Assembly (NCBI RefSeq): GCF_030539875.1
Contig: NZ_JAUNXI010000016.1
Location: forward strand, 1-43,247
DNA: 43,247 nucleotides
Direction of reading: 5' to 3'
DNA from: Methanobrevibacter sp.
GTDB taxonomy: Archaea > Methanobacteriota > Methanobacteria > Methanobacteriales > Methanobacteriaceae
Position 1 is the first letter of the stretch. The number at the start of each line of letters is the position of its first letter. Under the pieces are notes generated by a model. It was not told the DNA's origin. It made no database searches and saw only the letters and a list, made by a program, of their open reading frames with translations. This document shows, piece after piece, positions 4,656-43,247 of this stretch. Made by a program: the position numbers and the translations under genes.

Positions 4656-5861
4656 TCATTCATGATATGGAGAGCCGTTATTAGAGACATTATCTTTAAT
4701 TAACCCGTGAGCTTTGGGATAAAATCCGACATCCGCCGACAATTTCCTCATATTTTCAATAATTTCATTAGTTGGAATAGAAACAGGGCAATTTAAAGTG
4801 CACAATCCACATAAAGTGCACATGTAAAGACCGGAATCAAAGCATGTCTCATCATCTTCAATGAATTTAGACATTGCCACTCCACGACCTCCAAGATAGT
4901 TGTTAAATCCAAATTCGTTTCCAACAGCATTATAAACAGGACAATGAACGACACAGTTTCCGCAGCCAATACAGTAAAGACATTCTTCAATCGCATGACT
5001 TCTTCCATTATCCAATAAGATAACCACTACCTTTTCAGCACCATACATATTTTTTAAGAGTTTTTTCTCAATATCGGCTGTTTTTGATGGTCCTGAAATA
5101 ATATTGATATATGATGTTACATAGTTTCCGGTGGCAAAAATTGTTTCAAGCTTTACAATTGATATTGCATCCTCAAGAGTAGGCACTATTTTATCGATTC
5201 CAGCTACAATTATATGCAAATCCATCAGAGAAACTAATGAAATATTGCCCTCATTGTGAACCATTACAATGGATCCCTCTTCTGATGCAATTGCATTGGC
5301 TCCACTTATACCTACATTAGCATTTTTCAAACGATTTAACACATCTTCCCTTACTGTTTCCATGATTTCCCTTGGAACGGGACTGACATCAACATCCAAA
5401 GATTCATTTACAATATCTGCAATATTTGATACGTTCAGATGTGAGGCCGGCCCTGTTGGATGAACCGGTTTATTATCGGTTTTTTTAAGCTGTAAAATCC
5501 GGTCTCCCAAATCTGTTTCAACAACATCAATGCTGTGTGATAAATGTTTTTTAAGGTTGATTTCTCCTAATGTATTGGACTTGGCTTTTGCAACAGTATT
5601 GCAATCATATTCCAAAAGCAAGTCAGATATGATTTTTAAAGCGTCTTGAGTATCTGTGGCGAATTCAAAATCAATACCATTTCGTTTAAATGATTCGCAA
5701 ACCTGATTGAATAACTCTTCGTTATGTTCAATTGAATATTTTTTAATCTCACGGCCTTTTGAAATCAGCCTTTTGGTGGATGGTGATTCTTTAAGAGAAT
5801 TGAACCTGTTTTTAACTGTGTCAAATGATTTTCTCATTGTTTCAAGTTCATCTTCTTTCAT
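4656..5861 (-). CDS. LutB/LldF-like protein: LUD domain plus two [4Fe-4S] motifs
   Basis: The 401-residue protein has an N-terminal LUD domain (about residues 30-290; AKSNTLGEINLKKHL and GISGANAIASEEGSIV regions). A ferredoxin-like C-terminal part follows with CIGCGNCVVHCP and CTLCGLCTLNCP, enough ligands for two [4Fe-4S] clusters. The best-known relatives, LutB and LldF, act in L-lactate oxidation with LutA/LldE. The gene overlaps the upstream CCG-domain gene by 14 nt, so the two products probably form a complex. No separate LutC-like gene is adjacent. In a hydrogenotrophic methanogen the substrate need not be lactate, so a redox-complex role is all I infer. There are no membrane segments. 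Confidence 0.8.
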   Translation of the reverse strand: MKEDELETMRKSFDTVKNRFNSLKESPSTKRLISKGREIKKYSIEHNEELFNQVCESFKRNGIDFEFATDTQDALKIISDLLLEYDCNTVAKAKSNTLGEINLKKHLSHSIDVVETDLGDRILQLKKTDNKPVHPTGPASHLNVSNIADIVNESLDVDVSPVPREIMETVREDVLNRLKNANVGISGANAIASEEGSIVMVHNEGNISLVSLMDLHIIVAGIDKIVPTLEDAISIVKLETIFATGNYVTSYINIISGPSKTADIEKKLLKNMYGAEKVVVILLDNGRSHAIEECLYCIGCGNCVVHCPVYNAVGNEFGFNNYLGGRGVAMSKFIEDDETCFDSGLYMCTLCGLCTLNCPVSIPTNEIIENMRKLSADVGFYPKAHGLIKDNVSNNGSPYHE

Positions 5862-37892: not shown

Positions 37893-39419
37893 ATGACAAA
37901 TTGTATCATGGTTCAGGGAACATCCTCAAATGCTGGAAAGAGCATGCTTGTAGCGGCTTTATGTAGAATATATAAAAACAGAGGGTATAAAGTAGCCCCA
38001 TTTAAATCTCAAAACATGTCTTTAAACTCATACACCACAAAGGAAAACGGTGAAATTGGAATAGCGCAGATGCTGCAGGCGGAAGCTGCGATGGTTGAAC
38101 CGAGCATACACATGAATCCTGTTTTGCTCAAGCCGAAGGGAGATTTCACTTCAAACGTGATCATTCAGGGAAAATCCATCGGAGATATGGACTTCTACGA
38201 TTATCAGCACAAATACCATGATGATGCTCTGAAAGCCATAAAAGAAAGCTTCAATATTTTAAAAGAAGAATATGACGTCATAATCATTGAGGGGGCAGGG
38301 TCACCTGCCGAAATCAATATGCGCCGCCAGGACATTGCAAATATGGAAATTGCACACCTTGCAGATGCAAATGTTATCCTGATAGCAGACATTGAAATGG
38401 GAGGTGTTTTTGCAGCTATTGCAGGAACTTACGTCTTGCTTGACGATTATGACAGGTCACGGCTTAAGGCAACTGTAATCAACAAGTTCAGAGGAAATCT
38501 GGACATTCTAAAACCCGGACTTGATAGAATCGAAGAGATTACCGGAGAACCTGTTTTAGGAGTTCTCCCATATGACGAAACCCTGAAATTGCCCGAAGAA
38601 GATTCTGCATCCCTGACCACACACGAATTTGCAGAAAATAAAGACATCACAATAGGAGTCATAAGGCTTCCAAAAATAGCCAATTTCACAGACATCGACC
38701 CCTTTGAATACGAAGATGACGTTGCAGTTAAAATGATCGGAATCAATGATGATATCGGAGACGTCGATGCTATTTTAATTCCGGGAACCCGAAACTCTAC
38801 AGACGACATGTACGAACTGGAAAAAAGCGGCCTTGGAGACAAGATAATTGAAAAATCAAAAGACATACCGGTTATCGGAATATGCGGAGGTCTGCAAATC
38901 CTTGGAAAAATCATACATGATGAAGAAAAAAAAGAATCAAAGCACGGAACAGTCAGAGGCCTCGGACTTTTGGACATCGAATCCAAATTTGCAAGGTCAG
39001 ATAAAATAGTAACACAGTCAGAGGCAAGAATCTCTCAAAATCTCAAAGGCCTGGCCGGTGAAATATTTAAAGAAATTGCAGGTGAAACCGTTACAGGTTA
39101 TGAGATTCATGAAGGTACAAGCGAACTTTTAAATTCCGAAGCATTGCTGAACATTTCCAAAGGACAGGGAAACAACGACGAAGGCCTAATCGACGGTGCA
39201 TGCAACGGCAACGTGTTTGCAACATATTTCCATGGAATATTCCACAACTATAATTTCAGAAGAGAATTGCTGAACTATCTAAGGGTCAAAAAAGGCCTTG
39301 AAGCCAGATACGGTCCGGATCCTTATGAAACCCAAAAGGATTACTCCTTAAACAAGCTGGCAGAAATAGTTGAAGAAAATTTGGATATGAAAATCATTGA
39401 CGAATTGTTATTTCCATGA
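37893..39419 (+). CDS. cbiP: Cobyric acid synthase
   Basis: The enzyme (CobQ/CbiP) amidates four side chains of adenosylcobyrinic acid a,c-diamide using glutamine and ATP in cobamide synthesis. The 508-residue protein has an N-terminal P-loop MVQGTSSNAGKSMLVAALCRI, conserved FKSQNMSLNSY and IIIEGAGSPAEINM. The class I glutaminase Cys is in GICGGLQILG (about residue 332) and a C-terminal His in ATYFHGIFHN. It fits the cbiMNQO cobalt importer functionally, though 27 kb away. It is a single gene, probably leaderless. Confidence 0.95.
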   Translation: MTNCIMVQGTSSNAGKSMLVAALCRIYKNRGYKVAPFKSQNMSLNSYTTKENGEIGIAQMLQAEAAMVEPSIHMNPVLLKPKGDFTSNVIIQGKSIGDMDFYDYQHKYHDDALKAIKESFNILKEEYDVIIIEGAGSPAEINMRRQDIANMEIAHLADANVILIADIEMGGVFAAIAGTYVLLDDYDRSRLKATVINKFRGNLDILKPGLDRIEEITGEPVLGVLPYDETLKLPEEDSASLTTHEFAENKDITIGVIRLPKIANFTDIDPFEYEDDVAVKMIGINDDIGDVDAILIPGTRNSTDDMYELEKSGLGDKIIEKSKDIPVIGICGGLQILGKIIHDEEKKESKHGTVRGLGLLDIESKFARSDKIVTQSEARISQNLKGLAGEIFKEIAGETVTGYEIHEGTSELLNSEALLNISKGQGNNDEGLIDGACNGNVFATYFHGIFHNYNFRRELLNYLRVKKGLEARYGPDPYETQKDYSLNKLAEIVEENLDMKIIDELLFP

Positions 39420-40066: not shown

Positions 40067-40423
40067 CTAAACAATTATGCGCCCGTCATTATGAATATCG
40101 ATGATCACTCCGAAAATGTCTGAGATGCCAACCCAATTGCGAATACCTTCATATTCATAGAGTTCACCGTTTTTCACATAAGTTCCATTTACGTTATCAC
40201 TAATTTTTAAATCATATGAAAATTTTATAAATTCTTCAATTTCATTGTTAAGTTTATCAATATGCTTATTTCCAAAAAATGACTTAACTTTTTGTGTGAA
40301 AGTTTTATCTAATTTTTTTGATTCAATATAATCTGCTAAATCTAAATGTGATCCACACTCTTGGCAAAAATTATCATCATTTCCATTTTCAAAATTACAG
40401 TTCGGACAAAATTTTTCTGACAT
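40067..40423 (-). CDS. Zinc-ribbon protein of unknown function
   Basis: The 118-residue protein begins with a zinc ribbon (CPNCNFENGNDDNFCQECGS, Cys at 6, 9, 21, 24), followed by a basic helical linker (TFTQKVKSFFGNKH) and an alpha/beta domain ending IIDIHNDGRIIV. No membrane segment. It resembles many zinc-ribbon proteins in Methanobrevibacter accessory regions. Only a weak ribosome binding site (AGGGAAG) is visible. The role is unknown. Confidence 0.7.
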   Translation of the reverse strand: MSEKFCPNCNFENGNDDNFCQECGSHLDLADYIESKKLDKTFTQKVKSFFGNKHIDKLNNEIEEFIKFSYDLKISDNVNGTYVKNGELYEYEGIRNWVGISDIFGVIIDIHNDGRIIV

Positions 40424-40521: not shown

Positions 40522-41022
40522 TTACCTATTATTTCTCCAATGATATAATTTATTGGCAGTATCCCTCCTTGTCTCATCGAATTGATATTGGCCTTCATCG
40601 CCATAGCTTGCAAAATGATGTGACTGGATAAAATCACTGCAGGAATCACCAGGACCGGATGTCGGATAACCTCTACGGCAAACCATTCCATAAGATGCAC
40701 CATATGGACTTACACTCCAATAAGTACAATTTAAACAAATATTTTCCCCATTATCGATCATGGAATCATAATCCGGTTCTCCGAAATCATAATCATCATC
40801 AGAACCTATATTTCTACTGCAAACAGCATCCTCTTTACCTACAGCCCTATTACATTCATAACAATAGTATTCATCACACAAATCTCCCAGTTCATTATTA
40901 CATGTAGGGCATCTGGCAACAATAACTTCATCTTCACTAAACATTCCACCACCACATTCATTACACAAATAACCTCCAATTACTTCAGATAAATTAGCGC
41001 CGCACTTTGGACATAACTTCAT
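40522..41022 (-). CDS. Protein with several zinc-ribbon motifs
   Basis: The 166-residue protein has CPKCG (about residue 4), CNECGGG (about 20), CPTCNNE (about 38) and CYECNR (about 54), making two zinc ribbons. A Cys-bearing second part follows: ICLNCTYWSVSPYGAS and DSCSDFIQSHHF. The latter half resembles proteins that describe a washed-out metal site. GGTGGTGA lies upstream of ATG 41022. No membrane segments. Function unknown. It is the last minus-strand gene before the rhuM cassette. Confidence 0.7.
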   Translation of the reverse strand: MKLCPKCGANLSEVIGGYLCNECGGGMFSEDEVIVARCPTCNNELGDLCDEYYCYECNRAVGKEDAVCSRNIGSDDDYDFGEPDYDSMIDNGENICLNCTYWSVSPYGASYGMVCRRGYPTSGPGDSCSDFIQSHHFASYGDEGQYQFDETRRDTANKLYHWRNNR

Positions 41023-41419: not shown

Positions 41420-41569
41420 CTACATTTTCGCGAGTTTAAATATGACGAGGTCCCTAACATCCATTACAACATCACCATCATTAACATTTCCCATCAATAG
41501 CGAAGAATTGGGATTGTGAAGCTTGAAATTCCTTTTAACAGGATTATTCGAGAAATTTGCATAATACAC
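41420..41569 (-). CDS. Short ORF in the left rhuM-flanking repeat
   Basis: From GTG 41569 to TAG 41420 the minus strand encodes 49 residues beginning YYANFSNNPVKRNFKLH and containing LLMGNVNDGDVVMDVR. The related ORF in the right repeat (42836-42991) shares YANFS, VKRNF, LH, LL, GNV, VV and VR, and the differences are mostly conservative (R/K, D/N, E/D), which favours real or once-real coding. No ribosome binding site is visible; the start codon lies just beside a copy of the repeated motif. Function unknown. Confidence 0.4.
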   Translation of the reverse strand: MYYANFSNNPVKRNFKLHNPNSSLLMGNVNDGDVVMDVRDLVIFKLAKM

Positions 41570-41705
41570 TCAGAAATCTACTACTTTTAGTGAAATTTGT
41601 TCAATACAATACGAACAAAAATTGGCCAAAAGTTGGAGAATTATGTACTACTTTTTGGTCAAACTTGTTTCATATTTAACAAACAAATATTATTCATCAA
41701 ATGCT
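41442..41705. repeat. Left direct repeat flanking rhuM
   Basis: This segment aligns over its whole length with 42863-43128 in the same orientation, with the best matches in GAAATTCCTTTTAACA, AATTTGCATAAT, TACTACTTTT and ATCAAATGCT. A 48-nt core differs at only about five positions by eye. It contains two copies of a motif TACTACTTTTxGTxAAAxTTGTTxC at 41579-41602 and 41646-41671. It ends about 80 bp before the rhuM start. No terminal inverted repeats or target duplication typical of an insertion sequence are obvious. Confidence 0.75.
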
Positions 41706-41786
41706 CTTGCAAAAATTGGATATAATAATCATTAACAAATATAAAACCAATTATATAATTTTTAGATTAAAGCAAGGAGGAAACGT

Positions 41787-42830
41787 ATGCCAGAATTTAA
41801 ACTTATTGAAAAGTTATTATACAAAAGCGAACAGAATGACATCGAAGCTGAATTTTTAATAGGCAATGATACATTATGGGCAAGTAGAAAAGTTGTTGCA
41901 GAAATTTTTGGAACATCTCCTCAAACTATATCCTACCATTTTAAAAATATCATATCTGAAGATGAACTTGAAGAAAATGAAGTAAGTATATCATCAGATA
42001 AACTATTTAAAGAGAATATAGAGTTTAGCAAAGAATATTTGCAAAACTCCAAAAAAGGAGGACGCCCTCAAATATGGTTTAATCTTGATGCAATCATATC
42101 AATAGGATATAGAATAAACAGTAAAGAAGCAACACAGTTCAGAAAATGGTCCAATAAAATTTTAAAAGAATATATGGTAAAAGGATTTGTCATAGACAAA
42201 GAACTTCTAAAAAAAGGTGGAAGATTCACAGAAGACTATTTCGATGAATTATTAGAAACCATTCGAGAAATAAGGGCTTCAGAGAGAAGATTCAATCAAA
42301 AAATCACAGACATTTATGCAACAAGTTTCGATTATGACAAAGATGCAGACATCACAAAGGAATTCTTTGCAACAGTACAGAACAAACTGATATATGCAAT
42401 AAGCAACCATACTGCCGCCGAGATTATAGAAACACGAAGTGATATTGGAAAAACCCGTATGGGATTGACAACATGGAAAAAAGCACCGAATGGAAAAATA
42501 CTCCAAAGTGATGTAGTCATATCAAAAAATTATTTAAATCAGAATGAATTATCCAGATTAAACAGTTTAGTGGAAGGTTTTTTGAATTTAGCTGAATCCC
42601 GTGCAGAAGACAGAATTCCAATGGGTATGAAGGACTGGAAGGAACTGCTGGATGATTACCTCAAACTTCGAAGACTGCCAATTCTAGTTGGAAAAGGTAA
42701 AATATCTGCTGAAGAGGCTAGAAAACATGTTCTTGAAAAATATGAAAAATTCAGAGTCATGCAAGATGAAAACTTCATTTCCGACTTTGATCAAATGATT
42801 TTGGATATAAAACGATTAGAAGGAAAATAA
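41787..42830 (+). CDS. rhuM: RhuM-family protein
   Basis: The 347-residue protein has an N-terminal helix-turn-helix-like region (ASRKVVAEIFGTSPQTISYH, about residues 32-52). The RhuM signature follows (GRPQIWFNLDAIISIGYRIN, residues 91-110, then QFRKWSNKILKEYMVKGFV), and a helical C-terminal domain carries TDIYATSFDYDKDADITKEFFATVQNKLI and HVLEKYEKFRVMQDENFISD. RhuM proteins are found on pathogenicity and mobile islands; biochemical function is not settled, with links to toxin-antitoxin and defence-rich loci. AGGAGG lies 7 nt before the ATG and TTATATAAT at 41751-41759 is a likely TATA box. The gene sits inside two direct repeats. Confidence 0.88.
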   Translation: MPEFKLIEKLLYKSEQNDIEAEFLIGNDTLWASRKVVAEIFGTSPQTISYHFKNIISEDELEENEVSISSDKLFKENIEFSKEYLQNSKKGGRPQIWFNLDAIISIGYRINSKEATQFRKWSNKILKEYMVKGFVIDKELLKKGGRFTEDYFDELLETIREIRASERRFNQKITDIYATSFDYDKDADITKEFFATVQNKLIYAISNHTAAEIIETRSDIGKTRMGLTTWKKAPNGKILQSDVVISKNYLNQNELSRLNSLVEGFLNLAESRAEDRIPMGMKDWKELLDDYLKLRRLPILVGKGKISAEEARKHVLEKYEKFRVMQDENFISDFDQMILDIKRLEGK

Positions 42831-42835
42831 TATGA

Positions 42836-42991
42836 TTAAAATAGTTTTTGCTGTGAATCAATATAACTAGGCTCCCTAACTTCCTTTACAACCTCACCCT
42901 CTTTAACATTACCAATCAATAGCAGAGAATCCTGGTCATGAAGCCTGAAATTCCTTTTAACAAGCTTAGTCGAAAAATTTGCATAATCCAT
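42836..42991 (-). CDS. Short ORF in the right rhuM-flanking repeat
   Basis: From ATG 42991 to TAA 42836 the minus strand encodes 51 residues: MDYANFSTKLVKRNFRLHD, then LLIGNVKEGEVVKEVREPSY and a QQKLF end. It is homologous to the ORF at 41420-41569. Its stop lies 6 nt after the rhuM stop, convergent. There is no clear ribosome binding site, but the start is adjacent to motif copy 43003-43026. It may be a small regulator or antitoxin-like protein; that is speculation. Confidence 0.45.
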   Translation of the reverse strand: MDYANFSTKLVKRNFRLHDQDSLLLIGNVKEGEVVKEVREPSYIDSQQKLF

Positions 42992-43128
42992 ATCAAATTA
43001 TCTACTACTTTTTGTGAAATTTGTTCGTGATAATACGAAAAATAAAGTCAAAAAGTACCTGAATTATGTACTACTTTTTAGTTAAACTTTTTTCATACCT
43101 AACGAACTAACATTGCCTATCAAATGCT
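42863..43128. repeat. Right direct repeat flanking rhuM
   Basis: This is the second copy of the roughly 265-bp repeat seen at 41442-41705, same orientation. It carries the motif copies at 43003-43026 and 43069-43094 and ends ATCAAATGCTC as the left copy does. After it, TATATAATA at 43227-43235 is followed by the window end, comparable to the TATA box that follows the left copy before rhuM. A second similar gene may therefore begin just outside the window. Confidence 0.75.
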
Positions 43129-43247
43129 CACTCCATAACAGCATGCCAGTGGAATACTAAAGTAATACCTAGGATAACATACGATTAATATTAATTGCAA
43201 AATCCTACAATAAAAATATCAAAAAGTATATAATAAAAAATATCAAA
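43129..43247. other. Terminal stretch after the right repeat
   Basis: This AT-rich 119-nt tail carries a direct repeat AAAAATATCAAA (about 43213-43224 and 43236-43247) around a TATA-like TATATAATA. It looks like a plus-strand promoter for a gene beyond the window edge. No coding sequence is supported. Confidence 0.35.

Follow-up and report, generated by a model that had tools for sequence, protein, structure and literature searches.

A RhuM-family gene of Methanobrevibacter as probable cargo of a small integrative cassette targeting the 3' end of DUF1848

The window, that is, the whole stretch of DNA analyzed here, corresponds to the entire contig C16 (43,247 bp), and the RhuM-family gene near its right end is very probably the cargo of a small integrative cassette. 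The ends of this cassette would be attachment (att) sites of a family of tyrosine-recombinase elements that targets the gene DUF1848, and arrays would form by accretion of such cassettes, most of them devoid of an integrase and probably mobilized in trans. Sequence comparisons revealed the anatomy of the sites, exact junctions, arrays, cassettes shared and re-ordered between species, and integrase (int) elements inserted at the same core. The units belong to the broad kind of tyrosine-recombinase integrative elements residing in the 3' end of a protein-coding gene.

Results

The repeats flanking the RhuM gene are attachment sites

Two diverged repeats in the same orientation had been proposed around the RhuM gene from the sequence alone, and they were confirmed: the copies are 79% identical over 270 nt (E=3.9e-59, blastn against the own genome). 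They lie in register, with ungapped blocks of 118, 46 and 90 nt showing 82, 85 and 77% identity, respectively, at spacings of 1422-1424. Identity extends well beyond short words, as local alignment of the two segments gave a score of 258, whereas 500 shuffles yielded at most 33 and 300 other segments of the window at most 37. The initial coordinates (41442-41705 and 42863-43128) did locate the repeats but their limits had to be refined to 41439-41706 and 42839-43130.

Read on the minus strand, each repeat consists of an arm of ~140 bp, a core of ~10 bp (TGTTATGCMAA) and the last ~50 codons of DUF1848 in frame (Table 1). In the intact DUF1848 gene the core, with the consensus TGTTATGCCAA, encodes Cys-Tyr-Ala-Asn. 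The arms contain two AAAGTAGTAnATAATT motifs, an inverted repeat TTCGTAT...GAACAA and, at the outer end, a TCAAATGCTC box; an inverted repeat TTCGTAT...ATACGAA is also present. The outer box of arm 1 is found as well in the upstream region of int genes. A sequence-only model of the arm ending at the core (R1) matched arm 1 at 41556-41618 and 41639-41686, and arm 2 is 83-84% identical to arms adjoining integrase genes. A third copy of the coding half, present on contig C35 of the same genome, runs on upstream of the core (HGCEYC/YAN; HGCEYCYANFS); therefore, the two copies of the window are cut exactly at the core.

Table 1. Features of the window related to the cassette array
Feature	Position	Strand	Basis and remarks
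cobQ-like gene, native neighbour of the array at its far end	37893..39419	+	Also in G001 (L092 17059-18579)
DUF1848 3' end, copy 1 (coding half)	41439..41565	-	Translation YANFSNNPVKRNFKLHNPNSSLLMGNVNDGDVVMDV...; in-frame junction at core; degenerate after ~40 codons
RhuM cassette, core to core, 1422 bp	41563..42985	-	Core positions
Arm 1	41566..41706	-	Two AAAGTAGTA-type motifs, the inner one decayed; TTCGTAT...GAACAA; outer box TCAAATGCTC
RhuM-family gene, 347 aa, probable cassette cargo	41787..42830	+	Pfam PF13310, E=8.1e-97
DUF1848 3' end, copy 2	42836..42991	-	Translation; intact to the stop, YANFSTKLVKRNFRLHDQDSLLLIGNVKEGEVVKEVREPSYIDSQQKLF then stop; tail-to-tail with RhuM
Core of the right attachment site	42976..42987	-	ATTATGCAAA; consensus TGTTATGCCAA; alignment A1
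Arm 2, part of the next (ATPase) cassette	42992..43130	-	R1 match 42978-43041, E=9.1e-16
First part of the next cassette, preceding the AAA_14/DUF4143 ATPase gene	43131..43247		Colinear alignment with L066 and L071

These results bear on what the sequence-only reading had made of the repeats. Its description of a cassette or repeat-defined module was right, with the RhuM gene as the cargo lying between two cores. Duplicated DNA with an unexplained role, as it also had it, is refuted since each copy is an attachment site made of an arm, a core and a DUF1848 3' end; the divergence of the copies is better read as separate integrations followed by decay than as one duplication that is not recent. 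That neither a transposase nor inverted termini were visible, as remarked at the time, is consistent with our interpretation: recombination is probably the work of a tyrosine integrase whose gene lies elsewhere, on contig C13 of the same genome. As a whole, the earlier reading is partly supported. The possibility that the repeat is an insertion sequence or a MITE was rejected, as a terminal inverted pair is absent and one half can be recognized, from its coding sequence, as part of a gene.

The arms, with their TTCGTAT...ATACGAA inverted repeat, lie ~80-170 bp upstream of RhuM and int, which might suggest that the repeats are operators or promoters that surround RhuM and may link it to a regulator. 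A regulatory function as their main role is contradicted by the fact that one half of every repeat derives from the coding sequence of a different gene, that the junctions fall at the recombination core and that cargo of unrelated kinds adjoins the repeats in either orientation (same in 53 cases, divergent in 34); we consider this explanation very improbable, even if an arm could possibly double as a promoter. A rule that the gene adjacent to the arm is always divergent, which held in the first examples, was dropped on the larger set from which these counts come.

Two further observations concern the sites. A box, ACTTATCAAATGCTCTC, forms the outer end of the window repeats (41697-41706 and 43120-43129) and is also conserved ahead of numerous integrases in the genus (L133-L152; 53-100% identical) even where arms differ; it is possibly an int operator or an accessory site. 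Weaker attachment-site matches (68-74%) occur elsewhere in the own genome (G000 C15:33382-33561, C4:84263-84330 and C6:20672-20757) and possibly represent older insertions at other sites.

The array occupies a conserved docking locus

Another unit had been suspected past the right copy, and the alignments support it: a related cassette of L066 and L071 matches, colinearly, first the end of C16 and next the start of C35. This ATPase cassette is broken at the contig end within a short AT-rich tandem repeat, the ATPase CDS being on C35, and the third repeat sought past position 43247 was found there, as the coding half recurs alongside the ATPase gene. On C35 the cassette ends at a decayed DUF1848 stub, partial and interrupted by stops, that adjoins the thiolase and HMG-CoA synthase genes. 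From the colinearity with L066 and L071, the order of the array is therefore HMG-CoA synthase, thiolase, DUF1848 stub, ATPase cassette, arm and 3' fragment, RhuM cassette, arm and 3' fragment, zinc-ribbon ORFs and cobQ. In genome G001 (L092), HMG-CoA synthase-thiolase-DUF1848 on one side and cobQ on the other flank a different array; these same flanks place the window in a conserved docking locus. The zinc-ribbon ORFs between the array and cobQ are two and small (40067-40423 and 40522-41022). With its diverged arms and pseudogene stub the array is probably old, and it may be immobile now, given that the similarity of its two arms is 77-79% and that the inner motif on the left is decayed.

DUF1848 arrays are present in several genera

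By blastn, the arm was matched in 36 of the 67 genomes of the genus. Model R1 found matches in 42/67 and, family-wide, in 54 of 139 genomes and 5 of 17 genera, with strong matches in three genera; the same arm and core are present in at least two genera besides that of the window. Named records carrying the exact motif amounted to 22 contigs, all from Methanobrevibacter, and the exact att pattern was absent from IMG/VR. The repeat recurs with RhuM in other genomes, yet it is not specific for RhuM and accompanies many cargos.

Within the fetched regions, the 3' end of DUF1848 follows the core in frame at 82 of 98 sites with arm and core, the remaining 16 being located elsewhere or too degenerate to tell. 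This association was not built in, because the arm model stops at the core. Further DUF1848 fragments begin at the same codon but behind other arms. A complete DUF1848 gene heads nine arrays, beside thiolase and HMG-CoA synthase (L055, L063, L067, L092, L103, L106, L116, L117 and L120); these display the layout expected of elements that restore the 3' end of their target, with the whole gene at the head and displaced 3' fragments downstream, the head of the own array being the decayed stub. Most of the arrays studied are from metagenome bins with short contigs. At many sites the outer arms are degenerate or different, and several integrases of the family may therefore take part.

The DUF1848 genes of G014 and G023, which gave no arm match, were considered as empty sites and rejected, as each contains a cassette with a degenerate arm, seen as a displaced 3' fragment; only G018 appears as an empty DUF1848 site, on a short contig. 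Outside DUF1848, a GNAT-acetyltransferase cassette with the same arm was observed in G085 and G073 (L086 ~8565 and L091 ~4591; 95.8% identity over 2.7 kb).

Cassettes are small and shared between species

The 69 core-to-core units have a median length of 1997 bp; considering ORFs of at least 80 aa, 26 units carry one ORF, 15 carry two and 2 include an integrase ORF. The cargo comprises AAA_14/DUF4143 ATPases, MFS and MatE exporters, ABC subunits, MarR/HxlR/TetR regulators, flavodoxin/FMN reductase, TauE, FAD/FeS oxidoreductases, radical SAM proteins and RhuM. Cassette ATPases match the PADLOC candidate PDC-S01 (9.5e-60 and 2.3e-142). The RhuM gene of the window is a member of the candidate defence family PDC-S05 of PADLOC by sequence match (1.6e-124), from which a role in anti-phage defence may be proposed, and it is under purifying selection (dN/dS 0.096-0.114 for the gene of the window versus homologues in other species, and ~0.10-0.15 for RhuM).

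The RhuM cassette of the window matches, at 84.5%, the last 1.3 kb of RhuM/ABC cassettes of 3903 bp that are 100.000% identical across G063, G010 and G085; the 2293-bp unit preceding them is 99.9-99.96% identical. G085 is a closed genome from a different genus than G063 and G010, and in the mcr region its DNA is merely 81-83% identical to theirs. L057 and L058 differ in which comes first, the RhuM units or the integrase unit. Other cassettes recur at 94-99.9% identity in four to seven genomes beside different neighbours; a MarR/HXXEE cassette of 1555 bp occurs in four genomes (98.5-99.9% identity) and an MFS cassette in seven. Blocks with more than 95% identity between genomes provided 118 informative ends, of which 92 lie within 200 nt of a core and 32 within 15 nt, compared to 8 and 1 for random points.

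Integrase elements use the same arms and core

The genome of the window carries on C13 (3087-24507; L187, L017) an int element of ~21.4 kb inserted in mrtB of the mrt (methyl-CoM reductase II) operon. It encodes a tyrosine integrase, a terminase large subunit, a type III restriction-modification system, PIN and DUF4062 proteins and replication-like genes. The integrase matches PF00589 (1.3e-6) and its alignment with XerA spans HxxR and Y; the catalytic core of a tyrosine recombinase beside an att site is thus found in int elements, not in the RhuM cassette itself. The mrtB gene is split exactly at the core (model position 265/265) and GTTATGCCAA is present at both ends of the element, so that direct core repeats border a precisely interrupted target. 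The int-side end carries the same arm as the window. The left end of the element consists of the core and TAGTATAGAAATTATCTACTACTTTTCTCTCACTACAG followed by a DUF1848 paralogue, "A", and this same end lies at the mrtB core in C13. The left end with TAGTATAGAAATTATCTACTACTTTTCTCTCACTACAG was also found behind the DUF1848-B core in at least six species (G005, G010, G038, G050, G058 and G063), and in these genomes and G026 DUF1848-B is cut at the core with DUF1848-A of the int element behind. Since the same left end occurs at both types of core, the element uses the DUF1848 and the mrtB cores. At the left end of int elements DUF1848-A is whole and stands behind the truncated DUF1848-B (L186, L184, L185, L179, L180, L177 and L178), as if replacing the gene broken by insertion.

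Among 20 integrase loci examined, arms lie directly upstream of int only in the group of integrases at least 96% identical (4/4 of those whose upstream region was covered; L133, L134, L135 and L137), and more distant integrases are without arms, mostly with a TCAAATGCTCTC box. The idea that any integrase of the genus might be the mover was rejected, as homologues occur in 58 of the 67 genomes and arms are associated only with this group. The homologues, up to 15 per genome, form a large family that is hardly described. The int element of L058 includes int and an MCM helicase. At the ends of the C13 element (L008 ~1485-1520 and L017 ~5483-5515), the core stands between AAAAGTAGTAGATAATTT and the inverse of this sequence, AAATTATCTACTACTTTT, which together form an 18-bp inverted pair; cassettes retain only one of the two. 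A second copy of mcrA is present on contig C9 of the same genome.

An integrase might have only founded the repeats long ago, homologous recombination between the dispersed 265-bp repeats spreading and shuffling genes ever since. An arm with its DUF1848 fragment is long enough for such exchange, which could explain part of the shuffling, and many identity blocks extend 50-150 nt beyond the core into the common DUF1848 fragment. Insertions at a 10-bp core devoid of DUF1848 homology (mrtB in C13 and the sites of L056, L057, L086, L087 and L091) and the single left end at both mrtB and DUF1848 cores argue against it, and we regard it as improbable. Somewhat less improbable, though still unlikely, is a tandem accretion of full integrative elements that later lost their own integrase by deletion, the small units being remnants that were not mobilized in trans. 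Archaeal elements are known to integrate in tandem and to lose their integrase genes (PMC8371274), and the RhuM and DUF4143-ATPase cassettes retain the region upstream of int, with its TCAAATGCTCTC box, as if int had been replaced. However, the same small units, which carry no integrase, show core-to-core identities of 98.5-100% among several species, where their order varies, and random deletion would not leave identical remnants that still move.

Proposed mechanism

We favour site-specific integration of cassettes as the origin of the arrays. The target would be the Cys-Tyr-Ala-Asn codons near the 3' end of DUF1848, between thiolase/HMG-CoA synthase and cobQ. A circular cassette, the presumed intermediate, would bring an arm, a core and a spare DUF1848 3' end; recombination between its core and that of the gene would provide the gene with the 3' end of the cassette and displace the old end downstream, behind the arm. 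Repeated insertion would generate an array in the form DUF1848 - cargo - arm/3' fragment - cargo - arm/3' fragment. Conversely, recombination between two arm-core-3' end sites of an array would release the intervening DNA as a similar circle. Cassettes lacking an integrase would be mobilized by one acting in trans and encoded by larger elements that share their arms; this is the simplest account, because nearly all cassettes are without integrase and int elements with the same arm are around.

Discussion

The arrays described here resemble integron arrays in their tandem cassettes of mostly one or two genes, a shared recombination site, tyrosine recombinase chemistry, polarity, exchange between species and accessory cargo. 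That they are true integrons, with IntI acting on attC sites, is nevertheless extremely doubtful. INT matches weakly a model of XerA-type archaeal recombinases and no IntI model (NCBIfam), and single-strand folds are not conserved among five sites (z -0.3 to -2.9). The site is the 3' end of a protein gene with double-strand arm motifs, and cargo faces either way. Moreover, whereas integron arrays lie beside intI/attI, those studied here are headed by and anchored in the target gene DUF1848, away from the integrase. We therefore reject their classification as integrons and consider them analogous. A paper on archaeal integrons makes no mention of Methanobrevibacter (PMC9668308).

Integrative elements that restore the 3' end of their target gene include phage 21 and e14 in icd and the SCC elements in rlmH/orfX, the latter using serine recombinases. 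The likeness extends to an insertion point close to the 3' end in a conserved gene, a replacement end, tandem stacking and integrase-less members; the units described here are of far smaller size (median 2.0 kb) and much greater variety, and are common to several archaeal genera. The int-bearing elements (L058, C13) are of the same kind as the provirus and plasmid elements with tyrosine integrases known in archaea (PMC8371274). The text searched of that review describes tandem integration and integrase loss, and mentions neither the term "cassette" nor arrays of integrase-less cassettes. In Methanobrevibacter smithii, an extrachromosomal circle of 2.9 kb was found in vesicles (PMC12134362). 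Like the cassette circles proposed here, it derives from an integrase-less chromosomal segment of the genus; unlike them, it is without direct repeats, carries other genes (cofH, comD) and is not part of an array.

In the literature searched, which left most subscription papers outside its scope, we found no small integrase-less multi-cassette arrays across archaeal genera and no mention of DUF1848; the novelty of the arrays is provisional because of this scope.

A broader view, to which we give an even chance, is that DUF1848 arrays are an independent archaeal counterpart of integrons, in which DUF1848 would serve as a chromosomal platform for integrase-less cassettes of one or two genes, excised and inserted as circles by an integrase that a virus-like element provides in trans, and the pool would be exchanged at present among rumen and gut Methanobacteriaceae. 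If true, this would constitute a second, unrelated solution to the cassette-array problem alongside bacterial integrons. With the docking gene, the sequence of the core and a candidate integrase identified by name, the proposal can be tested directly, and the system might provide a genetic tool for methanogens that now lack one. For the main methane producers of the rumen and gut, it would offer a concrete route for the rapid exchange of candidate defence genes, efflux pumps and redox enzymes.
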